Source: Ktedonobacteraceae bacterium (lineage in GTDB: Bacteria > Chloroflexota > Ktedonobacteria > Ktedonobacterales > Ktedonobacteraceae). Taken from it: a stretch of DNA of 27,000 nucleotides. The notes under the pieces are model-generated. The model searched no databases and had not been told where the DNA came from. It worked only from the letters and a program-made list of their open reading frames with translations. The position numbers and the translations under genes are program-made. How positions within the stretch are numbered: the first letter of the stretch is position 1; every line of letters starts with the position of its first letter. The stretch lies in the NCBI GenBank assembly GCA_014896635.1, contig JADBKA010000043.1, positions 1 to 27,000 of the forward strand. The letters run 5' to 3'. This document shows, piece after piece, positions 2,880 to 27,000 of this stretch.

Positions 2880-3587
2880 TTAGAAAGTGGGACGGCGCGT
2901 GGTAACGGGAGATGAATGCGCCATGTGCTTGTTGAGCGCCAGGAGATCGCGTCCCAGTTCTTGCTGGAAGAGATCGGCCAGGCATGCCATACAGAGGTTG
3001 CCCTGGCAATCGCCGAGCATAGCGCCGGTGCGACGCTTAAGACCGTCAAGCGTCGCCGGCGGCAGAAGACCACGCAGAGCCGCCAGGATCTCGCCGCGTG
3101 TGATCGAGCGGCAGAGGCAGATGACGTCGCCCTCGTCAGGGGATGTCTGCGCCAGGTACTCCGGCAGCTCTTCGATAAACGAGGAACGCTGCGATAAGCC
3201 CAGTCGATCCCGCGCCAGACCGGCGACATAGCGTCCGATGGCCGGCGAAGCAGAAAGACCTGTTGAGCGGATACCCGCAACGTGCAGAATACGCGAACTG
3301 GTGGTGGCCGGACGGATGATATAGCCGCCAGTGCTGCTAACGGCGCGCAGGCCCGCAAACTGGCGCACGCTCTCTGCCGTCGTCATGGCAGGGACCAGCT
3401 TCCCCACGCCTTCACGAATCGTGCGCAGGCCAGCTTCTGTCGTTGAAAGATCCTCTTTCGAGGGAACATCCTCTGCCGTAGGTCCGAGCAGCACACCGCC
3501 GAACACTATTGGCGTAACCAGAATGCCTTTCGAGATCGGGCCGGGTACGGGTAGCATGATCTGTGAGACACCGTGATCCTCTTCCAC
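2880..3587 (-). CDS. C-terminal fragment of the GlpA-like dehydrogenase, BFD [2Fe-2S] domain
   Basis: The 3' frame of the broken gene. Homology-like sequence begins at about 3623, before the first ATG (3587). It contains the end of the DAO domain (GILVTPIVFGGVLLGPTAED, then IRSTGLSASPAIG, the usual FAD-contacting C-terminal motif) followed by a BFD-like [2Fe-2S] module with cysteines in ICLC and CQGNLCMAC. No convincing ribosome binding site precedes the ATG, so this is not an independent gene. Confidence 0.7.
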   Translation of the reverse strand: MEEDHGVSQIMLPVPGPISKGILVTPIVFGGVLLGPTAEDVPSKEDLSTTEAGLRTIREGVGKLVPAMTTAESVRQFAGLRAVSSTGGYIIRPATTSSRILHVAGIRSTGLSASPAIGRYVAGLARDRLGLSQRSSFIEELPEYLAQTSPDEGDVICLCRSITRGEILAALRGLLPPATLDGLKRRTGAMLGDCQGNLCMACLADLFQQELGRDLLALNKHMAHSSPVTTRRPTF

Positions 3588-4282
3588 AATAATGAACTGG
3601 CCCTTGCGTGGCGTGAGCGTGAAGAGTCATCGCCCACCATGCGCGCGATCTCATCGGACCAGAGGCCGGCAGCATTGACTACCAGTGCTGCGTTGAAGAT
3701 CAGACCACCACTGGTGCGTACCTGCACGCGCTTATCAGATAGTACAAGGCTCGTCACGGCCTGGTTTGTAAAAACTGCGGCGCCGTTCTGCATAGCATTT
3801 TCGCAATAGGCGCGGGTCGTCCAGAACGGATCTATGATGCTTTCCCCTTCAATGAGCACGCCGCCCATCACGCGAGGATTGACATACGGCGCGCGTTCCA
3901 GAATATCGGCGCGCGTCAGACGCTGCAAGGTGACGCCGTTGCGCGCAGCGCGAGGGATGATGCCCTGTTCGAGGGTGGAGAGTTCTTCCTGGCTGGTTGC
4001 TATCATCAGCGCGCCGGTCTGTAAATATGGGATATGCAGCTTTTCAACGACGTCAGGCCAGAGCGCGCGCGCCTCTGCCAGCAGGCGCGCTTCGAGCGTA
4101 CTGGGGGAAGCGTCGAAGCCGGTATGCACAATGGCGCTATTCGCCTTGCTGGTGCCTTCACAGATATCGGGGGCGCGCTCCAGCAGTGCTATGCTCGCAT
4201 CAAAGCGTGCCAGCTCGCGCAAGATAGCACAGCCCACAACGCCACCGCCAATCACAAGGATATCGACATCTTTCTGCTGCAT
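3506..4282 (-). CDS. N-terminal fragment of the GlpA-like dehydrogenase
   Basis: The 5' frame of the broken gene, carrying the FAD-binding fold (GGGVVG at residues 12-17) and most of the DAO substrate domain through AALVVNAAGLWSDEIARMVGDD. After about residue 220 the reading becomes an arginine- and serine-rich tail unlike any flavoprotein and ends at 3506. On its own it would lack the last part of the catalytic domain and the iron-sulfur domain, so it is unlikely to be functional unless the frame is restored. Confidence 0.7.
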   Translation of the reverse strand: MQQKDVDILVIGGGVVGCAILRELARFDASIALLERAPDICEGTSKANSAIVHTGFDASPSTLEARLLAEARALWPDVVEKLHIPYLQTGALMIATSQEELSTLEQGIIPRAARNGVTLQRLTRADILERAPYVNPRVMGGVLIEGESIIDPFWTTRAYCENAMQNGAAVFTNQAVTSLVLSDKRVQVRTSGGLIFNAALVVNAAGLWSDEIARMVGDDSSRSRHARASSLLWKRITVSHRSCYPYPARSRKAFWLRQ

Positions 4283-4363
4283 GGCTTTCTCCAGTTCTGG
4301 ACACAATCGGGTAGAGCAGCGCAATCGGATATGCAACAGCAACCCCGCCCGGTTTTCATACTC

Positions 4364-4484
4364 CCTTGCGTTCAGATGGGCAAGATGCGCCAGCATCTTG
4401 CCAGTCCCGCCGGTGGCGGGACGGATCTCGAACGGCTATCAAGATTTCATACCAAGTTGCTTCCAGAGAAGCAACTTGGTATCA
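4364..4484 (+). repeat. three-hairpin dispersed repeat, copy A
   Basis: About 121 bases beginning CCTTGCGTTCAGATGG and containing three consecutive inverted repeats: CAAGATGC/GCATCTTG, GTCCCGCC/GGCGGGAC and a perfect 15-base arm pair at 4449-4463 and 4468-4482 (loop CAGA). A second copy in opposite orientation lies at 22764-22886. It falls inside the presumed 5' leader of the minus-strand dehydrogenase operon. It may be a REP/MITE-type element. Confidence 0.85.
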
Positions 4485-4516
4485 GATCACCAGTTTTCAT
4501 AATTTCAGAAGTTGTG

Positions 4517-4536
4517 ATACTTTATGATCAAAGTAT
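4517..4536. promoter_or_regulatory. inverted repeat, candidate operator of the dehydrogenase operon
   Basis: ATACTTT (4517-4523) and AAAGTAT (4530-4536) form a 7-base inverted repeat with a 6-base centre. It overlaps the -10 box and start region of the minus-strand promoter, the expected place for a repressor. A related string TGTGATATACTTT occurs again at 4599-4611, on the kinase side. Confidence 0.5.
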
Positions 4537-4560
4537 ACAGATAATATGATAATTTGTCAA
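4532..4560 (-). promoter_or_regulatory. sigma70-type promoter for the dehydrogenase operon
   Basis: On the minus strand TTGACA (4560-4555) is followed after exactly 17 bases by TATACT (4537-4532), a near-perfect housekeeping promoter. Transcription would start near 4525, giving a leader of about 240 bases that contains hairpin repeat copy A before the ATG at 4282. Confidence 0.75.
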
Positions 4561-4726: not shown

Positions 4727-6319
4727 ATGTCCTGGTTTCAGACGCGGCAATCGGTGGATATTCATGACCAGATGGCTATCCTCATCGGTAGTGCCGTTCG
4801 TCTATTGTGTGGGGAAGCGGGCGTTTTTGTCGTAGCGAACGAAGTGTTTGACCCGCAGAGTACCAGCGAATATAGCCTCTATCGCTTGAGCGAAGAGGTC
4901 TTGCCGACCCTGCTGGCGGATGTGCAGGAAGGTGTGCAGCCGAATTCCCTGCATCCTTTTGTGATCGAGCCGGTCGCGCCTTCACTCGCTATTGAGCTTG
5001 GAATGGACGAAGACGTGGTGAAGCAGCAGGGCATCGTCCGCTGTTCGCTGCTGCTCTATGATCGCAGCGGACCTGTGGGCGTGCTGCACTTTTTGCGCCG
5101 CGCCACTGCGCGGTCCTGCTTCGAGCAGCACAGCCGATCGGCAGAGGGGGAAGACGCACTCTACCTGCGCCTGTTTATTGCCCTGCTCACCGCCAGCCTG
5201 CGCTTCGCCTTGCAGTCACAGAGCCTGGTCAGCGAGCAGGCGCGCTTCGCCGCAATCTTCCAGCACAGTGCTGAAGGTATGCTGACGGTTGACGGCACCC
5301 TGCGCATCGCCGACTGGAATCCGGCCATGGAGCGCCTCACCGGCTGGCGCGAAAGCGAAGTGCGGGGACGCTTCTACTTTGAAGTGCTGCGTCCGCGTGA
5401 CCGGCAGGGCCGGGGACTGGGCTTACAGGACTCGCCCATCTTGCAGGCTTTTGCAGGTCAGACGGTCATCAACCGCGAAATGATCATTCTCAGCCGCGAT
5501 GGTCAGCCGGTACACGTTGCTGTCACCGCCACCTGCGTGCGATCATCGCGTGGCGAGCCGGTGAATGGCATTCTCAATGTACGCGACCTGACGCGCGAAC
5601 GTGAGCGAGAGGAACAGCGTTCAACGTTTATCTCAGTGATTTCACATGAGCTACAAACGCCGATAGCCATTATCAAAGGCTATGCCTCGACGCTTGCCCA
5701 TGCCAGCGCCCGGTTGGATGCAGCATCGCTGCAACCTCGCCTGGTCGCAATAGAAGAAGAGGCCGACCGGCTGAACAAACTGGTAGGCAATTTGCTCTAC
5801 GCCTCGCGCATTCAGGCCGGCGGTTTGCAAATGGATATCGCCTCGCTGGACCTGGAGTCGCTCATTGAGAGCGTTGTGCGGCGGCTGAAAGCGAAGAGTC
5901 CAGATGTCAGTTTTACGCTGGACATTCCCGCTGACCTGCCGATCGTCAAAGCCGACCGCGACAGGATTGAAGAGGTTTTACTGAACCTGCTGGATAACGC
6001 CATCAAATATTCGCCGCGCCAGCGCACAATCACCGTAGCCGCCCGTGCGACCGGTGAGGAAGTCATAGTGAGCGTCAGCGATGCCGGTATGGGCATCTCG
6101 CTGCGGGACCAGCAGCAGATTTTTGATCGCTTCCAGCGCGCCGACAACCGCGTGACACAGGCAATGCCAGGCGCCGGCCTGGGCCTCTACATCAGTCGCG
6201 CCATTGTCGAGGCGCACGGTGGGCGCATCTGGGTTGAGAGCACTCTGCATCAGGGTTCAACGTTTTCGTTCAGTTTACCGCGAGAAGAGAAAGCGCAATT
6301 GCCAATGGTGGTTTTTTAA
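4727..6319 (+). CDS. sensor histidine kinase (GAF-like, PAS, HisKA, HATPase)
   Basis: 530 residues, no clear membrane segment, so probably cytoplasmic. Residues 10-165 look like a GAF-type sensory domain, 168-285 a PAS domain ([29 protein letters not shown]), and 295-365 the dimerisation/phosphoacceptor domain with the phosphorylated histidine H307 in SHELQTPIA. The ATPase domain follows with N box [11 protein letters not shown] (420-430), G1 DAGMGIS (452-458), F box IFDRFQR (465-471) and G2 GAGLGLYIS (482-490). Every catalytic box is intact. The stop overlaps the response-regulator start by one base (TAATG), so they are a coupled two-component pair. Start ATG 4727 has GGAG about 11 bases upstream. 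The signal sensed is not evident. Confidence 0.93.
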
Positions 6320-13247: not shown

Positions 13248-16200
13248 TCACGAACGGATGTCTTTGCGCTTCAAAAACCAGCCGATAGCCCAGCCCAGGA
13301 TCACGATGGTGATTGCCAGGGCAACCCAGCAGAGCAGGAGATGCGCAACGGCTTCGGGCTTGCTGGTAGTCGAGAAAAGCAGGCCCTTGAACGAGAAGTC
13401 GTCGGCCCCCAGTTTATCGCCGTGCAGGCCCACCGTTGAACCCATCGCGGCCATCGCCCAGCGCGTCGGGAAGAAGGCGCCGATAACCTGTAAGAGTGGC
13501 GATTTGTCGAGCGAGAAGACGACGCCCGCGAAGATGACCTGCGGCAGCAGCGCCAGCGGTACAAGGCTCATAGCGCGATCATTGTTCGAGACGATGGCCG
13601 AGATAGTCAGGCCGATCATCAGGCCAGCTATCGAGGTCAGCGCCATCGTAATATAGATCTCTACAAATGGTGAGAAGAGAATCTGCTGTGATGGCAGGCG
13701 CTCTATCGGTGAGCGGGCAAACACGACGGCAACGAGTATCAAGCTTTGCAGCAGGCAGAGCAGGCCCAGCACGAAGAATTTAGAGAAGATGTAAGGGATG
13801 ATGCCCAGATTGACCGCGCGCTCACGCCGGTAGATGGCGGCCTCCTTGACGATTTCTCGCGAACCATTGATGCAGCCAAACATGACTGCCGCAAACGCCA
13901 TGATGAAGAGATCCTTCTGTGCATCGCCTCCCGAACCTGGTGCGATGGCTTCCTGCAACACCTGTTCCTTCGTTTTATGCTGCTGTTGCAAGAATGCCTG
14001 GCCTTGCTCTGTATCGAGCGCTGCAGCGACACGGTTGCAGTTACGGCTTACAATCGGCCCGCTTGTATCGGTAATGTTAGCGCGTGTGGGACAGTTTGCA
14101 ACACTAGTGACTGCGAACGTGCCTGCATCCATCAGGAAGAGCAGGACAAGCGCGATGATGGGGGCCTGGAGCAATAGAATCGCCAGATTGGCCGTATCGT
14201 TTTTCAGCAGTTCCAGGTAGCGTACGGCAAGGATGCGGAACTGCTTCCAGGGATTGCCGCGCTTGGGCGGCTTGACGGCTGTGGTGGCGGTTGGATTGTA
14301 GGCCCGATTCCCGCCCTGCTGGAGCGGGGCCAGCACATAACGCTGGTAGGCGGGCGATTGCCTGAAGCGCGCCTCGGCCTGCGCCGGGATGTCGGGATTC
14401 TCGTCGGTGGGTTCCAGCGCGCTATAGATTTCGGCGAAGTCGCTCTTCTCGAAGTATTCTTTGGCTTCGTCAGGGGGACCAAAGTAGGCCAGGCGGCCAC
14501 CACGCGCCAGGAAGCAGACGTAGTCGCAAGCATTGATGTTGTTCGTCGCATGCGTCACCAGGACAATAGTACGGCCCCGGTCGGCCAGCCGGCGCATCAG
14601 CGACATCATCTTGCGGTCGAGGCCCGGATCGAGGCCCGACGTCGGCTCATCCAGGAAGAAGACACTGGGATTGGCGAGCAGTTCAAGCGCAATGGAGACG
14701 CGCTTGCGTTGTCCGCCTGAGAGCTTGCTGATCAGCAGGTTGCGCTGTTTCTTCATCTCGACGTCTTCGAGCACCTCTTCAATGCGCTGCCTGATCTGCT
14801 GTTTTGTGAAGTCATCGGGCAGGCGCATTCTAGCAGCGTAGTAGAGAGCGCGCTCGACGGTCAGATCGCGGTGAATGATGTCGTCCTGCGGCACATAGCC
14901 GAGTTGGGTGCTGAAAGCTGCCAGATTCTTGTAGTAGTCCTGGCCGTTGTAGAGCACGGTTCCCTGCTGAGCCGGGCGCAGGCCATTGAGCGCATTCAGC
15001 AGTGTTGACTTACCGGCGCCGGAGCCACCGACCAGGGCGACAAATTTGCGCGGTGGGATGACCAGCGAGATATCGTTGAGCAGCACCACTTGCTGGTTGC
15101 CACGCCTGACGAGACGTAGCGCATCAATACGGACGCCACTGCTTTCGTCGTGCTGGGCAAGATGCGTCCCGGTATAGGCAAGTTTAAAAGGACCGATGCG
15201 AATTTCATCGCCAGGATTAAGTGGTCGCGTGTGGACCCGCTGTCCATTCACATATGTATGGTTGGTGCTGCGCAAATCAACGATGCGATAGCCCCCCTGT
15301 GCCTGTTCCAGGCGAGCATGGTGGCCGGAGACCTGGGGATGGTTCAGCACAACCATATTGTCGGGCAGGCGGCCAAGCGTGATCACAGGCGCCCCCAGAG
15401 CAATAGGACGAATTTCCGGTACGGCTTCCTGCGGCGCGCCCGTGCCGTCATTATAGGTCAGCGTGACAAACGTACCATTTTCATCACTGATGCGCAGAAC
15501 ATCACCGCGCGTCAGGACGAGGCGAAATTGCTCGTTGCCCCGATAGGCGCGTCCCTTGTAGTCGATGCCGTTCAGCGTGCGGCCTCGCTGAGGATGAGGA
15601 TGGATGAAGACAAGCCGGTTTCCCTCACGCACAATCTGCGCATGGAAACCAGAGACAGTCGGCCTGTCGATCCAGATCGCGCCCGGATCGCCACGCTGCT
15701 GTCGCTCACGCAAGGACGGGTCACGTCCAATATCAATGACCGGCGCGGCCAGCCGATAGGTATGCCTGTTGCGATCAGTGTTGGTGCTGACTTCGAGCGT
15801 AGGCTCGCCGCTGGCTCGTTCTGTGCCGGTGCTGGGAGCCTGGGCCATTGGTGGCGAGAAGGCAGCCTCGGTTCCACCGGAAGCTTGCGTTGAGAGTGGA
15901 GCAAAGGCAGGTGACACCGACGGTGGCGATGAAGCAGGGGGTACCGAGGAAAAAGCAGAGACAGGCGGCATTGACGGGGGTGATGAGGCAGGTGGCATCG
16001 CGGAGAAAGGATCTGACCGCGCGGTGAGGGGAGTCGAGGAAGGGATAGAGACCTCGAAACGGAAAGTAGTAGTGGGGCCAAGTCCTATAGTGTCGTTGTG
16101 AGCGAGCGGTGATTGTTCTACTTCACGCTGATTCACGGTGACAATATTCTTAGGAGCGAGCTTCCTGATCATCCACGCCTCCCCGTTCCAGAGAAGCTGG

Positions 16201-16394
16201 GCATGCTGGCGCGAAACCGCCGGATCGGCGATGACAACATCATTTTTTAGCTGCGGGTCGTTCGGGTCACCGCCGCGCCCAATATAGATCAAAGGCTTTG
16301 TGATAAGGAAAGTTTTCCCCGCCATCGGCCCGCTGAGAAAGTGAATAGAACCAAGCACCGAGGGACTATTGACCATTTCCATAGTGATGAGCAT
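13248..16394 (-). CDS. FHA-FHA-FHA ABC transporter fusion (ABC-2 type, ABCG-like)
   Basis: 1048 residues. Residues 14-115, 198-312 and 330-408 are three FHA domains, which bind phosphothreonine; the first has GRGG...VSRQHAQ, the second IGRD...VSGFHAQ and the third LGRLPDN...VSGHHARL with STNHTYVNG. A serine/proline-rich linker (118-198) joins the first two. The ABC ATPase follows: Walker A GGSGAGKST (456-464), signature LSGGQ (558-562), Walker B VFFLDEP (578-584), switch H615. The membrane half (about 710-1048) has six helices and a loop with paired cysteines (NCPTRANI, SRNC), as in ABCG half-transporters. It likely exports or pumps a lipid or small molecule under Ser/Thr kinase control. An in-frame stop lies just before ATG 16394. 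An AAAGGAGG at 16442-16449 is too far upstream to serve it. Downstream is coaBC, 161 bases away. Confidence 0.94.
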   Translation of the reverse strand: MLITMEMVNSPSVLGSIHFLSGPMAGKTFLITKPLIYIGRGGDPNDPQLKNDVVIADPAVSRQHAQLLWNGEAWMIRKLAPKNIVTVNQREVEQSPLAHNDTIGLGPTTTFRFEVSIPSSTPLTARSDPFSAMPPASSPPSMPPVSAFSSVPPASSPPSVSPAFAPLSTQASGGTEAAFSPPMAQAPSTGTERASGEPTLEVSTNTDRNRHTYRLAAPVIDIGRDPSLRERQQRGDPGAIWIDRPTVSGFHAQIVREGNRLVFIHPHPQRGRTLNGIDYKGRAYRGNEQFRLVLTRGDVLRISDENGTFVTLTYNDGTGAPQEAVPEIRPIALGAPVITLGRLPDNMVVLNHPQVSGHHARLEQAQGGYRIVDLRSTNHTYVNGQRVHTRPLNPGDEIRIGPFKLAYTGTHLAQHDESSGVRIDALRLVRRGNQQVVLLNDISLVIPPRKFVALVGGSGAGKSTLLNALNGLRPAQQGTVLYNGQDYYKNLAAFSTQLGYVPQDDIIHRDLTVERALYYAARMRLPDDFTKQQIRQRIEEVLEDVEMKKQRNLLISKLSGGQRKRVSIALELLANPSVFFLDEPTSGLDPGLDRKMMSLMRRLADRGRTIVLVTHATNNINACDYVCFLARGGRLAYFGPPDEAKEYFEKSDFAEIYSALEPTDENPDIPAQAEARFRQSPAYQRYVLAPLQQGGNRAYNPTATTAVKPPKRGNPWKQFRILAVRYLELLKNDTANLAILLLQAPIIALVLLFLMDAGTFAVTSVANCPTRANITDTSGPIVSRNCNRVAAALDTEQGQAFLQQQHKTKEQVLQEAIAPGSGGDAQKDLFIMAFAAVMFGCINGSREIVKEAAIYRRERAVNLGIIPYIFSKFFVLGLLCLLQSLILVAVVFARSPIERLPSQQILFSPFVEIYITMALTSIAGLMIGLTISAIVSNNDRAMSLVPLALLPQVIFAGVVFSLDKSPLLQVIGAFFPTRWAMAAMGSTVGLHGDKLGADDFSFKGLLFSTTSKPEAVAHLLLCWVALAITIVILGWAIGWFLKRKDIRS

Positions 16395-17079
16395 GTGCCG
16401 TATTCAGCAATCCAGGCTCAGCCGCCAGGCTGGTACGGCAACCTCCTTTCTGCATGCCTGTCTGAAAATGCTTGCGTTGTCGTCCTGCTATCTGCCACTT
16501 CATTAAGATGATCAATAATGAAGAGAATAAAACTTGCTTTATTTCTGACTCATCTGCATGCCTCTATAGCAGACAATGCTATCTTCCCACTCCCCCACAA
16601 TCAGGAATGGCGCGCTTCACCGGGAGCGTTTGACCCGGATAGTTCCCAGAATGAAGAACGTTACTAAGATAGATTTTTCCTGGCTATTATACTTCAGAGG
16701 CTCAATCCCGTAAACAGGAAAGGTCTCTGAATCTACTGCGATAGCAGTGTTTTCCTCTCACTTCCAGGCCAGCAGGATGGTAAGGGTTGCAGGCATTAGT
16801 ACTATTTCGCCCATGCGTAGGGAATGCTTCTTCGTTAGAATTATTGAGTAAGCAGCCAGCGATGCTATCAGAATAGTTGTTCTGTTTATTGACGATGAGC
16901 TGACCATATGTTAGTATCCCAGGCCATAGAGGCTTACTCCACAGGTGCGTACTTATTTGCTCTATATATTGAGAACGATATTCTACTGATTCCCAGGCTT
17001 CGGGGCTAAAAGCGTTTTCTGATAATTGCTCCTGACAATGCACCGGTGATACTGCGAGAAAAAGAGAGTTCACAATGTC
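16395..17079. other. divergent intergenic region, no convincing gene
   Basis: About 685 bases between the minus-strand FHA-ABC gene and the plus-strand DUF4388 gene, so it must hold both promoters. A 123-codon minus-strand frame (17073-16702) starts at GTG without a ribosome binding site and resembles no protein I know; I do not call it. I found no clear consensus promoter. Confidence 0.4.
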
Positions 17080-21552: not shown

Positions 21553-22725
21553 CTATCCCAATACCAGATTCATCTCGTGATCTTTGAGTCGTACCTGCCG
21601 GACCGGATGCCCGATCTTTGCCTGCGCATCGGCCAGGTGCCGGTTCAACAGTGTTGCCATTTCCTGTGATGACATGACCAGGCTGACCGGGCCTTCGGTG
21701 GTCACATTGGCAGCGACAAGCTTTCCATCCTGCGCCTGTGGTGTACCGCTGATGGCGCATGCCAGGCCATAGATCTGGAACTCGATGCGGACGCCCGCAG
21801 GTGTAATTTTCGTTACAGGTTGTTTGACCGGATTTGAAGGCGCGAGATTGAGCACGATCAGATTATTGAGCGTGCTCTCCGAAACGGCCAGGGTATAGCC
21901 AGGCGGCAACTGCGAAGCCTGGGCCGGGATCTGATTGACGGCGGATGAGAGAGCGCGGTCGAGTTCGGCCTGCGCGATATCATGTGCATAGGGACGTCCC
22001 AGTAAAAACCAGCCTGCGCTAGCAGCGACGAGCAGCAGTACCAGTACGCCGAGGCAGCCAAGCGCACAGTTGAGGCCACGACTACGCTGTGGTCTTTTCA
22101 CAACCCCTGGTTGCATTTTATTTTTTCCTTTGCGTGACTTTGATGTTGTCGGTGGGCTGACCTGGTAGAAAATGAATGATCCCGAAGGCGTTGAGGAGGG
22201 AGCAGGCAGGGCAGGATTCGAGGCATCAAAGGAGAATCCGGCTGAATGTATACTTTCGCTGCCAGTTCCGGCGGGCGGAAAAGCCTGCTGAGTGGCGTTC
22301 TGGAAATAGAGCACCGGCGAGTCGATGCCCTGGCCGGAGTCCGCAGGAACGGGCGCAGGAAAAGACCGCTGTGCTTGTTCCGGGAAAACATTTACGGTTT
22401 GTTCGGCATCGCTCACCAGCGTCGGTTCTGGAGAAACGATTACTGTCTGTTCAGCATCACTGGTACTTTTGTCGTTGTCGAGTTGCGTCGTAGGAATATT
22501 GGCGCTGTGCCTGCCTTCTTCTCGAACTGTGAAAGGATGTTGCGAAGATATGTTCTCTGGCACAGGTGACGTGAGTTGACTGGATGGTTGGAGCGGCAGG
22601 TCAGGTTCCGGCTTCTGATCACTTGCCAACTCCGGTAGAGATGATGAAGAGGTGACAGGTGTGCCGCAGTGCGGGCAGAAGCGCGCACGCTCGATGAGAG
22701 GCTTATGACAGCTATCACGGTTCAT
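21553..22725 (-). CDS. zinc-ribbon single-pass membrane protein, unknown function
   Basis: 390 residues. It opens with a ribbon-like motif C6, C17, C20 (MNRDSC and FCPHCG), but the usual first cysteine of MxCxxC is replaced by arginine at residue 3, so metal binding may be lost or altered. A long low-complexity region rich in Pro, Ser and Thr (25-215) contains a tandem duplication of SDAEQTV at about 89 and 105. A lone transmembrane helix lies at about 221-243, with an outer C-terminal domain of about 145 residues (YAHDIAQAELDRALSSAVNQ, LNNLIVLNL, VSLVMSSQEMATLLNRHL) that I do not recognise. Orientation is probably C-terminus out. It abuts the signal peptidase gene tail to tail. Confidence 0.78.
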   Translation of the reverse strand: MNRDSCHKPLIERARFCPHCGTPVTSSSSLPELASDQKPEPDLPLQPSSQLTSPVPENISSQHPFTVREEGRHSANIPTTQLDNDKSTSDAEQTVIVSPEPTLVSDAEQTVNVFPEQAQRSFPAPVPADSGQGIDSPVLYFQNATQQAFPPAGTGSESIHSAGFSFDASNPALPAPSSTPSGSFIFYQVSPPTTSKSRKGKNKMQPGVVKRPQRSRGLNCALGCLGVLVLLLVAASAGWFLLGRPYAHDIAQAELDRALSSAVNQIPAQASQLPPGYTLAVSESTLNNLIVLNLAPSNPVKQPVTKITPAGVRIEFQIYGLACAISGTPQAQDGKLVAANVTTEGPVSLVMSSQEMATLLNRHLADAQAKIGHPVRQVRLKDHEMNLVLG

Positions 22726-22763: not shown

Positions 22764-22886
22764 GTCTCATTCCATGTTGCTTCTCTGAAAGCAACATGGG
22801 ATGGAATCTTGATACTCGTTCAGAAACGTCCCCCCGCCGGTGGGACTGGCAAGATGCTTGCGCATCTTGTCCATCTGAACGCAAGG
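22764..22886 (-). repeat. three-hairpin dispersed repeat, copy B
   Basis: Read on the minus strand it starts CCTTGCGTTCAGATGG and aligns over its whole length (roughly 85 percent by eye) with the copy at 4364-4484. All three hairpins are kept: CAAGATGC/GCATCTTG, the GTCCC/GGGAC block with an imperfect stem, and CCATGTTGCTT/AAGCAACATGG. It lies between the divergent zinc-ribbon and WYL-regulator genes. Confidence 0.85.
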
Positions 22887-22912
22887 TAATATCAGGCTAT
22901 CTTTGTAGTAGT

Positions 22913-22933
22913 ATATGCCTATTTATGGCATAT
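22913..22933. promoter_or_regulatory. inverted repeat, candidate operator of the WYL regulator gene
   Basis: ATATGCC (22913-22919) and GGCATAT (22927-22933) with a seven-base AT centre, 65 bases upstream of the WYL regulator start and thus placed for autoregulation. The sequence is A/T rich around it. Assignment by position only. Confidence 0.45.
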
Positions 22934-22997
22934 GTCCATAACTCTTCCACTTGTCTCCCATAGGCGTAGACTGAACGGAAAGAGGAGGAGAACATAC

Positions 22998-23954
22998 ATG
23001 TACCATCCCACGAGTCGCATTCTCACCGTGCTTGAACTGCTCCAGGCCAGGCCGTTCATCAGCGGGCCAGAGCTGGCTGCGCGCCTGGAGATGGATGTAC
23101 GCACGGTGCGTCGCTACATCATGCATCTTCAGGATGCGGGTATTCCTATCGAGGCAACCACTGGCCGCTATGGGGGCTACCGGCTCCGGCCCGGCTTCAA
23201 GCTGCCGCCGCTGATCTTCACGGAAGAGGAAGCGACGGCGATCATGCTCGGTCTGCTCGGCACGTCCTGGCTGGAGATCGGCCAGTCACCGGCGGCGGTC
23301 GAAGGCGCGCTGGCGAAGGTCTCGCGTGTGCTGCCGCAGCGCGCGCGAGAGCGCCTGCAAGCCATGTCCTCTCATCTCTTCTTCTTCTCGCCTCAGCAGG
23401 AGTCGCGGCCCGATGTCTCGCTGCTGATCACGTTCAGCCAGGCCATCGGACAGCGCCAGCGCGTCGCCATCGACTACCGCTCCTACAACGACGAGTTGAC
23501 GCATCGTAAAGTCGAGCCGTACGGCATCGTGGGCTGGCAAGGACGCTGGTACCTGGTTGGCTACTGCTGTCTGCGCCAGGACTACCGCACGTTCCGCCTG
23601 GATCGCATCCAGCAGGTGCAGACGCTTGAGGAGTCTTTCGAGCGACCAGAGGATTTTGATTGCCGGGCGTATGTGATGAAGTGGTATGGTAAATCTGAGG
23701 GTCGCTGGCAGATTGAAGTCGAGTTTCAGGCGCCGCTATTCACGGTACAGCAGAGGATACCCACGTTCTACGGAGAGCTTGCGGCTACGCCGACCGGCGC
23801 GCTCTTCCGCTGCGAGTATGATGACCTGGATAGCCAGGCGCGCTACCTGATGTCGCTCAACCTGCCATTCGTCGTGCATCGTCCCCCTGAACTGCGCGAT
23901 GCTCTGCTCCGCCTGGCCGAGCAGATGATGCAGATTGCGAATACAGAGTCGTAA
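22998..23954 (+). CDS. HTH and WYL-domain transcriptional regulator
   Basis: 318 residues; ATG 22998 has GGAGGAG eight bases upstream, so the longer frame from 22932 is not used. Residues 6-60 are a winged helix-turn-helix (RILTVLELLQARPFISGPEL, RTVRRYIMHLQDAGIPI). The WYL domain (about 150-230) has the eponymous tripeptide at W184-L186 (GRWYLVGY) with the RTFRLDRI motif behind it. A C-terminal WCX-like domain fills the rest. WYL proteins sense ligands such as nucleotides or nucleic acid and regulate defence, DNA-repair or metabolic genes. No such target gene adjoins it here; it may control itself or the divergent zinc-ribbon gene. Confidence 0.92.
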   Translation: MYHPTSRILTVLELLQARPFISGPELAARLEMDVRTVRRYIMHLQDAGIPIEATTGRYGGYRLRPGFKLPPLIFTEEEATAIMLGLLGTSWLEIGQSPAAVEGALAKVSRVLPQRARERLQAMSSHLFFFSPQQESRPDVSLLITFSQAIGQRQRVAIDYRSYNDELTHRKVEPYGIVGWQGRWYLVGYCCLRQDYRTFRLDRIQQVQTLEESFERPEDFDCRAYVMKWYGKSEGRWQIEVEFQAPLFTVQQRIPTFYGELAATPTGALFRCEYDDLDSQARYLMSLNLPFVVHRPPELRDALLRLAEQMMQIANTES

Positions 23955-24004: not shown

Positions 24005-24035
24005 GGCATTCATGACGAGTCTCCCCGATCCCGCT
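24005..24035 (+). repeat. 31-bp repeat, first copy
   Basis: Starts GGCATTCATGACGAGT and ends CCCCGATCCCGCT; 29 of 31 bases match the copy at 26353-26383. Both copies encode MTS(L/T)PDPA from an in-frame ATG, then diverge. It may be the remains of a gene start carried by a mobile element. Confidence 0.6.
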
Positions 24036-25567: not shown

Positions 25568-25675
25568 AAATTGTAGCAGGTTCTGGCATTCTCTCAGAGA
25601 GGATAGCAGTTCTGTAAAAGAACCAGGTATACTTTCTGAGAGAAATACGATATATTGCTCATGAAGGAGGTATAT

Positions 25676-25984
25676 GTGAAGACCTATCGCAACGCACTCA
25701 TCACCTTTGGCCTGGGGCTGGTCAATATTCTTATGTTCTTTTTGATAGCTATATTTCCGGTAATATATCATTTTCCTTATATACAGCTTTTTTACCTTCT
25801 CCCACCACTGGCAGCAATTGTGATGGGATTTGTCACGTTTTTCACCAATAAAGAGGAACCATTTACTGGTAAAGTGCGATTATTTCTCTATAGTGGTTTA
25901 GCACTTGGTTTCATCAGCATGGTGCTAAGTGCTGGTCTCCTCTTCTACTATCTTGCCTTTCACAGCCTGGGGTCGGGTCTCTAA
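25676..25984 (+). CDS. small membrane protein, first of a tandem pair
   Basis: 102 residues from GTG 25676 with AAGGAGG five bases upstream. Three hydrophobic segments: about 10-32, 36-55 (FYLLPPLAAIVMGFVTFF) and 66-92. The opening KTYRNALITFGLG is shared almost exactly with the next gene. No family recognised; possibly a DUF-type three-helix protein. Its composition is AT-rich like the hydrolase before it. Confidence 0.7.
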   Translation: MKTYRNALITFGLGLVNILMFFLIAIFPVIYHFPYIQLFYLLPPLAAIVMGFVTFFTNKEEPFTGKVRLFLYSGLALGFISMVLSAGLLFYYLAFHSLGSGL

Positions 25985-26033
25985 GGGTATGCCTGAATTC
26001 GCGCCGGTCAGCACGCTGTTCAAGGAGGTATAG

Positions 26034-26243
26034 GTGAAGACCTACCGCAATGCGCTTATCACTTTTGGCTTGGGTAGAGCAAGTGTCGTGATGCTCTACC
26101 TCACGTATCTGTTGCCAGTGATTTATCGTATTCCATTCCCTCTCCAACTCGTCTACCTTCTGCCGCCCTTGCTGGCTATCGTGATGGGATTTGTGACGTT
26201 TGGCACTCATAAATCAAGCAAGAGAAGATGTACCAACCCATAA
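26034..26243 (+). CDS. truncated paralogue of the preceding membrane protein
   Basis: 69 residues from GTG 26034, with the same AAGGAGG-TATA-GTG arrangement as the gene before. It matches that protein through LPPLLAIVMGFVTF(G)T(H)K (about residue 59) and then ends in an unrelated basic tail SSKRRCTNP, missing the third helix. The divergence point (about 26210) precedes the mobile-type repeat at 26266, so loss by insertion or deletion is likely. It may be non-functional. Confidence 0.65.
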   Translation: MKTYRNALITFGLGRASVVMLYLTYLLPVIYRIPFPLQLVYLLPPLLAIVMGFVTFGTHKSSKRRCTNP

Positions 26244-26265: not shown

Positions 26266-26355
26266 GGCTCTGTTGAGAAATCCTCACTCTCTGCTCGCTT
26301 TGAGCGGGAATGTCCTTCCTCTCTGAGCTTGGGAAATCAATTTGCCAACAGAGGC
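26266..26355. mobile_element. MITE-like 90-bp inverted-repeat element
   Basis: GGCTCTGTTGAGAAAT (26266-26281) and, inverted, GCCTCTGTTGGCAAAT (from 26355-26340) match at 13 of 16 positions, bounding 90 bases without coding capacity. The ends resemble insertion-sequence termini starting GGCTCTGTTG. No transposase is present. Confidence 0.5.
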
Positions 26356-26383
26356 ATTCATGACGAGTACCCCCGATCCCGCT
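26353..26383 (+). repeat. 31-bp repeat, second copy
   Basis: 29 of 31 bases identical to the copy at 24005-24035, joined directly to the MITE-like element. Here the ATG opens a 32-codon frame (26360-26458, starting MTSTPDPAEL) that overlaps the end of the NACHT-type gene by four bases; it looks like a gene-start remnant. Confidence 0.6.
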
Positions 26384-26454: not shown

Positions 26455-27000
26455 TTAGCCTTGCTGAGATGTAACCTCTGCCGGAGCACTGCCCATATCC
26501 TGTTGTGACGGAGAAAACGTCGAAGCCGCTTGCACGTGCAAGTCCTCGAAATAATCCTGGAGCAGAGCGTGGGCAAAGCGGTAGCCGCCGCCAACGCGCC
26601 GCAGTAGAATGCGCTTCGTGGCATCTTCGAGAAACGGCACCACCTGCCAGGGAAAGACGCCGGCGCGCGCAAGCCAGAAGCGCAGGATATAGTGATGCAC
26701 AACGTCACTCAGCATACCGGAAAGCCCGCCGGAAAGCACACCGAAAAGCACACCGGCAAGTACACCAGAAAGCACGCCATAAAGCACACCGGCAAGCACA
26801 CCAACCAGCACACCAGAAAGCACACCAGAAAGCACACCAACCAGTACACCGGAAGGCACGCCGGAAAGCCCGTTTTTTAGAGACTGCTGCATCCCTTCAT
26901 CAGGAGAGAGGGTAGGGCGCTCGGTCAGTTGCTCTGTCGAAAGACTATCAACCAGCTCTCTGAATAGCCAGACGGCCAGCCCGGCGGACAGGCCACTGAC
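26455..27000 (-). CDS. C-terminal part of a NACHT/STAND-type NTPase with GVLx repeats
   Basis: 181 residues in frame up to the window edge, so the N-terminus and any NTPase domain lie outside. The visible part begins GLSAGLAVWLFRELV, then has about 13 tetrapeptide repeats of the form GVLS, GVLA or GVLV, strongly hydrophobic and probably membrane-embedded. After them VHHYILRFWLARAG, FLEDATKRILLRRVGGGYRFAH and LLQDYFEDL are typical of the closing part of NACHT/STAND proteins from cyanobacteria and Chloroflexota. The C-terminal tail is Ser/Gln rich. Such proteins act as signal-triggered switches, some in phage defence; which role applies here cannot be told. Confidence 0.8.
   Translation of the reverse strand, partial: VSGLSAGLAVWLFRELVDSLSTEQLTERPTLSPDEGMQQSLKNGLSGVPSGVLVGVLSGVLSGVLVGVLAGVLYGVLSGVLAGVLFGVLSGGLSGMLSDVVHHYILRFWLARAGVFPWQVVPFLEDATKRILLRRVGGGYRFAHALLQDYFEDLHVQAASTFSPSQQDMGSAPAEVTSQQG
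26712..26867. repeat. 12-bp tandem repeat (13 units) encoding GVLx
   Basis: Thirteen consecutive 12-base units close to GCACACCGGAAA on the plus strand, each giving four residues (GVLS/A/V) on the minus strand. Units differ mainly at wobble and variable positions, so the array is old enough to have drifted but keeps its phase. It is prone to copy-number change. Confidence 0.85.

Follow-up and report, generated by a model that had tools for sequence, protein, structure and literature searches.

The window, i.e. the whole stretch of 27,000 nucleotides analysed here, contains a dispersed non-coding repeat of about 123 bases that is made almost wholly of palindromes. Its two copies, A and B, both lie between divergently oriented genes, as the initial annotation had proposed and as the sequence, the list of open reading frames (ORFs) and Pfam confirm. 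The copies, the neighbouring genes and the promoter-like sites are the following.

3506..4282, minus strand: N-terminal part of an FAD-dependent oxidoreductase (DAO), downstream of copy A; a GGAG site suggests the start at 4282
4364..4486, plus strand: element copy A, length 123 nt (self-blastn, alignment, fold)
4476..4503, plus strand: promoter-like TTGGTA-16-CATAAT (consensus match 9/12), starting in hairpin 3 of copy A and leading away towards the histidine kinase gene
4532..4560, minus strand: promoter-like TTGACA-17-TATACT (consensus match 11/12), pointing through copy A to the dehydrogenase gene
4727..6319, plus strand: PAS sensor histidine kinase, the first gene across copy A (ORF, Pfam)
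21553..22725, minus strand: zinc-ribbon protein gene, downstream of copy B (Pfam E 4e-5, below the curated cut-off)
22765..22886, minus strand: element copy B, length 122 nt (self-blastn, alignment, fold)
22910..22938, minus strand: promoter-like TGGACA-17-TATACT (consensus match 10/12), pointing through copy B to the zinc-ribbon gene
22998..23954, plus strand: WYL/HTH regulator gene, the next gene across copy B; an AGGAGG site suggests the start at 22998

The occurrence of two copies in unrelated divergent intergenic regions is real. When the window is compared with itself by blastn, the pair is the top repeat (144 bits, the runner-up reaching 75 bits), extending over 129 bases at 85.3% identity with E 4e-35. 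In the global alignment, 106 of the 123 columns are identical, and the copies differ by 16 substitutions and one 1-base gap. The inverted two-copy arrangement put forward earlier is therefore sound, whereas the ends given with it, 4364-4484 and 22764-22886, are nearer to 4364-4486 and 22765-22886. The blastn similarity is confined to 4358-4486 and 22765-22892, and the flanks of the two copies are unrelated to each other, from which we infer that the element has moved or been copied. Judged from the ORF list, there are three divergent regions in the window, and the third, at about 16395-17079, holds only a 5.9-bit match to a covariance model built from the two copies.

Other repeats are also present in the window. 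A 31-base repeat at 24005-24035 and 26353-26383 is 94% identical, is followed by unlike sequence and could encode the first residues, MTS[L/T]PDPA, of two short proteins. Tandem 12-base units, each composed of AGCACACC and four variable bases, occupy 26699-26878 and give 11 overlapping 60-base copies, and self-blastn detects a diverged direct duplication at 25664-25852 and 26022-26213 (69% identity over 192 columns).

Both copies are predicted to fold into a three-way junction, in which a closing helix surrounds hairpins 1 and 2, with hairpin 3 standing separately. The predicted fold of copy A has the following parts.

4365..4377, plus strand: 5' arm of the closing helix, 13 pairs
4379..4402, plus strand: hairpin 1, 10 pairs with a loop of 4
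4404..4422, plus strand: hairpin 2, 8 pairs with a loop of 3
4425..4443, plus strand: 3' arm of the closing helix, with a 1-base and a 5-base bulge
4449..4482, plus strand: hairpin 3, 15 pairs with a loop of 4, outside the junction

The closing helix comprises 13 pairs in copy A and 12 in copy B. The initial annotation had described three adjacent hairpins; the folds bear out the strong hairpins but not their adjacency, for two of them sit inside the closing helix and the third lies apart. Palindromes are thus found near both ends of the element, the junction beginning at base 2 and hairpin 3 stopping 4 bases short of the end in copy A. The RNA fold of each copy has a z-score of about -8 and the single-stranded DNA folds have z-scores of -9 to -11, with none of 200 shuffles equally good in either case, and the complementary strand of copy A folds as well as the element strand. 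The consensus fold of the two copies contains 42 pairs, of which 40 are unchanged, one is compensatory and one is changed on one side.

While the copies diverged, the fold, or the sequence of the stems, has been preserved beyond what chance would give. We compared copy B with 2000 mutants of copy A that carried an equal substitution burden at random positions. The energy of copy B is -58.8 kcal/mol against a mean of -38.1 (sd 5.2) for the mutants, only one of the 2000 being as low, and four pairs are broken against 10.3 expected. Run in either direction between the copies and for each strand, the energy test yields 1, 0, 0 and 0 of 1000 mutants that are as good. Because the energy and the broken-pair tests both beat the random mutants, we conclude that the fold was kept during the divergence of the copies. 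The differing columns are 9 of 92 paired and 8 of 31 unpaired ones (Fisher p 0.036); the 9 stem substitutions compare with 12.0 expected and are not clearly fewer, since 6% of simulations give as few. The energy test is blind to the distinction between RNA and single-stranded DNA, and likewise to that between selection at the present sites and selection in a mobile lineage.

The paired change in the third hairpin, from which selection on the folded form had originally been proposed, is present in the alignment and in the consensus fold as one event: CAAGTTGC/GCAACTTG in copy A becomes CATGTTGC/GCAACATG in copy B, an A-T to T-A exchange. Altogether 6 of the 46 pairs of copy A differ in copy B. 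Two still pair, namely this compensatory one and a wobble (C-G to T-G), and four are broken (T-A to T-T, G-C to A-C, G-C to A-G and A-T to C-A), two of the four carrying changes on both sides. Mismatches in place of paired changes, which the initial annotation would have counted against its proposal, thus occur in part between the two known copies. Pairs altered on both sides number three against 0.78 expected, a count reached by 2% of the mutants, and two of these three no longer pair. Among the 2000 random mutants of copy A, 25.6% contain one or more compensatory pairs, so that a single such event is no evidence alone, and this rate together with the four broken pairs rules out covariation as proof of RNA function. 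Selection on the fold therefore draws its support from the fold energy and the small number of broken pairs and not from the single covarying pair; the fold energy is the stronger evidence.

The same figures bear on a neutral explanation, in which a non-functional palindromic stretch was duplicated and template switching at replication, not selection, maintained the likeness of its arms. Palindrome correction can yield paired changes without selection, and a quarter of the random mutants acquire at least one compensatory pair in any case. Such a process suits the perfect arms of single hairpins but less so the long-range closing helix, in which all 12 pairs common to A and B are unchanged, and we regard it as improbable.

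In its genomic setting, copy A lies 81 bases and copy B 39 bases from the inferred starts of the minus-strand genes. The initial annotation had placed copy A in the predicted leader of the dehydrogenase operon, and this agrees with its position downstream of the good promoter-like site of the dehydrogenase gene; 22910..22938 is the sole promoter-like site near copy B. All of these sites are consensus matches only, of which 0.6-0.7 would be expected by chance per region. Relative to the predicted minus-strand transcripts, copy A is in reverse and copy B in forward orientation. The GlpA-like FAD oxidoreductase gene next to copy A (2880-4282, minus strand) is itself split over two reading frames by a frameshift or a sequencing error: positions 1-235 of the DAO profile fall in 3506-4282, and positions 252-352 together with a BFD-type Fe-S domain fall in 2880-3587.

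This arrangement invites the reading of the element as an RNA module of mRNA 5' leaders, acting on stability, processing or translation and comparable to copies of BOX, ERIC and Bcr1 that became useful after insertion. The position of both copies between a promoter-like site and a minus-strand gene start points in this direction, as do the conservation of the RNA fold and the effects of co-transcribed BOX, ERIC and CE repeats described in PMC3049150. Nevertheless, the two leaders would bear opposite strands of the element, the promoters are consensus matches with a chance count of 0.6-0.7 per region, the downstream genes (an oxidoreductase and a zinc-ribbon protein) are unrelated, and Rfam gives no match at the gathering score. 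We consider a leader module rather unlikely, if worth keeping in mind. A riboswitch can be rejected on the grounds that no known family is matched, the downstream genes are unrelated and the two copies have opposite orientations; this opposition argues against a strand-specific riboswitch and is what would be expected of a palindromic mobile repeat. A small-RNA gene that was duplicated once is very doubtful as well. The stable fold would suit it, as would the promoter-like site that, in element orientation, precedes copy B by 23 bases, but neither region contains a terminator-like site and the region scan found no promoter-like site upstream of copy A in element orientation.

We searched for relatives at several levels. 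A covariance model of A and B, run over the window with its filters off, gives 20 matches at E <=10 and no new copy: besides A and B there are four matches of one or both hairpin types on the strands opposite to them above 8.5 bits and two more there at 8.5-8.9 bits, and the remaining matches, elsewhere in the window, reach at most 8 bits. Rfam yields no match at the gathering cut-off in the 27,000 bases. Below it, at E <=10, 7 matches lie around A and 8 around B, mostly on single hairpins and taken as chance; the best are mir-72 at A (E 0.17) and mir-51 at B (E 0.053), and THF-II at copy B scores 20.7 bits of the 41 needed. A known RNA family is accordingly ruled out at the gathering score, the matches below the cut-off being judged chance.

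Beyond the window, no relatives were found in the plasmid, phage and viral collections or in a frame-translated protein search, the sole phage match (29 bases, E 0.4) being taken as chance. Of six pattern scans of viral contigs, three returned matches, 15 in total and all in unrelated sequence, and a protein scan of these contigs gave no relative. The joined frames of both copies produced 34 and 78 candidates among proteins, none at E <=10, in what is a weak test. The exact-pattern scan of genome contigs, which was the only search to cover Ktedonobacterales genomes, gave one match, in a Neomegalonema (proteobacterial) MAG; it lacks the hairpins and was taken as chance. Chloroflexota were otherwise represented by two plasmids, of Thermomicrobium roseum and Candidatus Chlorohelix, with a best DNA match of E 1.27. 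The T. roseum plasmid has three covariance-model matches, the best with 27.4 bits and E 3.7e-4, which we judge to be chance though E is below 0.001; the best is an 85% G+C hairpin pair without closing helix or hairpin 3. None of 50 genomes in the phylum of G001 gives a match, a result that is uninformative. Pieces of the element sequence are unmatched in the literature, and queries for Ktedonobacter or Ktedonobacteria repeats, for IscB/HEARO and for three-way-junction repeats brought nothing relevant among the matches listed. To our knowledge, structured intergenic repeats are little catalogued in this bacterial group.

As to the proteins of the window, CoaBC shares at most 80% identity with the other proteins among the best 120 matches listed; the two of these given with an organism name come from Dictyobacter (77% each), which suggests a Ktedonobacterales-like host. 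No plasmid record carries the zinc-ribbon protein, and an AIM24-like protein has relatives on five plasmid records. A large protein at 13248-16394 (minus strand) combines FHA domains with an ABC ATPase and an ABC-2 membrane domain (Pfam); its relatives, encoded on 14 plasmid records chiefly from cyanobacteria and actinobacteria, reach a coverage of at most 51%.

The ends and flanks of the copies were inspected for signs of mobility. A 9-base direct repeat, GTTTTCATA, stands beside copy A.

4352..4360, plus strand: left 9-base direct repeat, a possible target duplication, uncertain
4493..4501, plus strand: right 9-base direct repeat, a possible target duplication, uncertain

If the repeat marks a target duplication, the element could be a MITE of the DDE type, and among 2000 base-shuffles of the 20-nt flanks only 1 reaches its length. 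However, it is separated from the stretch common to A and B by 3 and 6 bases, the flanks of copy B have no 9-base counterpart (the longest direct repeat there is 5, a length reached by 27% of shuffles), and no terminal inverted repeats are seen on reading both ends of both copies. A DDE-type MITE is thus unlikely to be the answer; a true target duplication would for its part speak against movement of the IS200/IS605 type. The word TTTCATA flanks copy A at 4354-4360 and 4495-4501 and recurs inside it at 4445-4451, immediately ahead of hairpin 3; this internal occurrence is not conserved in copy B.

Guide sequences and enzymes were sought in the same way. No GT[AG]G guide lies within 2 bases of a hairpin foot in either copy: the sole GT[AG]G on the element strand of copy A is inside hairpin 2, and on the other strand of copy B a GTGG, which copy A lacks, stands at a distance of 3 bases from the hairpin 1 foot, within the stem of hairpin 2. 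An unpaired CGTC tag is likewise absent: the element strand has no CGTC, and the one on the other strand, seen as GACG at position 57 in both copies, overlaps the stem of hairpin 2. Pfam assigns no transposase family, including Y1_Tnp, and no IscB or TnpB family to the 30 ORFs scanned of the 85 listed (>=80 aa). HEARO and the omega RNAs of IscB and TnpB elements are structured RNAs tied to IS200/IS605-type elements and are known for their frequency in Ktedonobacter. HEARO is not among the Rfam matches at E <=10 around either copy.

Among the systems compared, the feature list of PATEs (palindrome-associated transposable elements) is the best fit. In two strains of Haloquadratum walsbyi, PATEs number 177 and 194 copies, show strain-specific insertions and are kin to the IS605 type; they are too short for a transposase, lack terminal inverted repeats, have palindromes near both ends and form heterogeneous copies (PMC3119063). 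Our element resembles them in being, at 123 nt, too short to encode a transposase, in having no terminal inverted repeats and palindromes near both termini, and in that its copies differ. It departs from them in its two copies, in the lack of any partner found and in the three-way junction at one end. PATEs have no target duplication; of the two copies here, B shows none and A has the 9-base repeat. Their trait of alike near-terminal palindromes was sought after the sequences had been inspected: in copy A the stems of hairpins 1 and 3 have CAAG[A/T]TGC in common (0.4% of shuffles), and the likeness is not significant in copy B (10.8% of shuffles).

The element is also like REP, REPIN and BIME sequences in being an intergenic palindromic repeat with a strand-symmetric fold. 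Repeats of the GTAG type have been reported in Chloroflexi (PMC3733652, PMC6006769), and by the rule for this type a GTAG or GTGG stands 0-2 bases from the 5' foot of the hairpin (PMC6006769). The element differs from the REPs of RAYT (TnpA-REP) enzymes in that there is no guide at a shared hairpin foot, in its unit of 123 instead of 20-65 bases, and in that no RAYT is encoded among the 30 of 85 window ORFs scanned. A GTAG-type REP thus fails on the GT[AG]G guide and a CGTC-type REP on the unpaired CGTC tag. The pneumococcal BOX (PMC3049150) is set apart by being modular (boxA/B/C) with terminal inverted repeats, which the element lacks; Bcr1 is listed in a table of structured repeats in PMC2267715. 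In our comparison, the element probably works like repeats of the PATE, REP and BOX type, and we file it as a member of none.

By analogy with these systems, we tentatively favour a non-autonomous palindromic mobile repeat, similar to PATEs, REPs or Bcr1 and moved in trans as folded single-stranded DNA, an account that we find quite possible yet short of probable. Its mobility, the enzyme, its transcription and its effect on genes are matters that we infer. The account rests on the 85% identity of copies with unrelated flanks, the conservation of the fold, the capacity to fold on both strands and as single-stranded DNA, and the opposite orientation of the copies to their promoters; it is weakened by the fact that only two copies are known, with no empty site, no transposase in the ORFs scanned and no shared GTAG/GTGG guide. 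A transposase supplied in trans, of the IS200/IS605 or TnpA-REP type, would recognise the folded single-stranded DNA and copy the element to new places, as has been proposed for PATEs and REPs. The fold would be kept either because only copies that can fold are able to move or because disruptive copies in leaders are selected against. A copy inserted between a promoter and its gene would add a stable fold to the mRNA in either orientation. A more specific version, in which an undescribed mobile family of Ktedonobacterales consists of a junction-plus-hairpin unit moved as folded single-stranded DNA and gives orientation-independent structured leaders to unrelated genes, seems to us somewhat unlikely.

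On the present evidence, the element is a further example of the small structured intergenic repeats known from many bacteria. Should it prove to represent a family, a single-strand transposase acting on it would have an unusual substrate in the three-way junction, and the leaders that carry the element could serve to test whether folded mobile repeats alter gene expression in either orientation.
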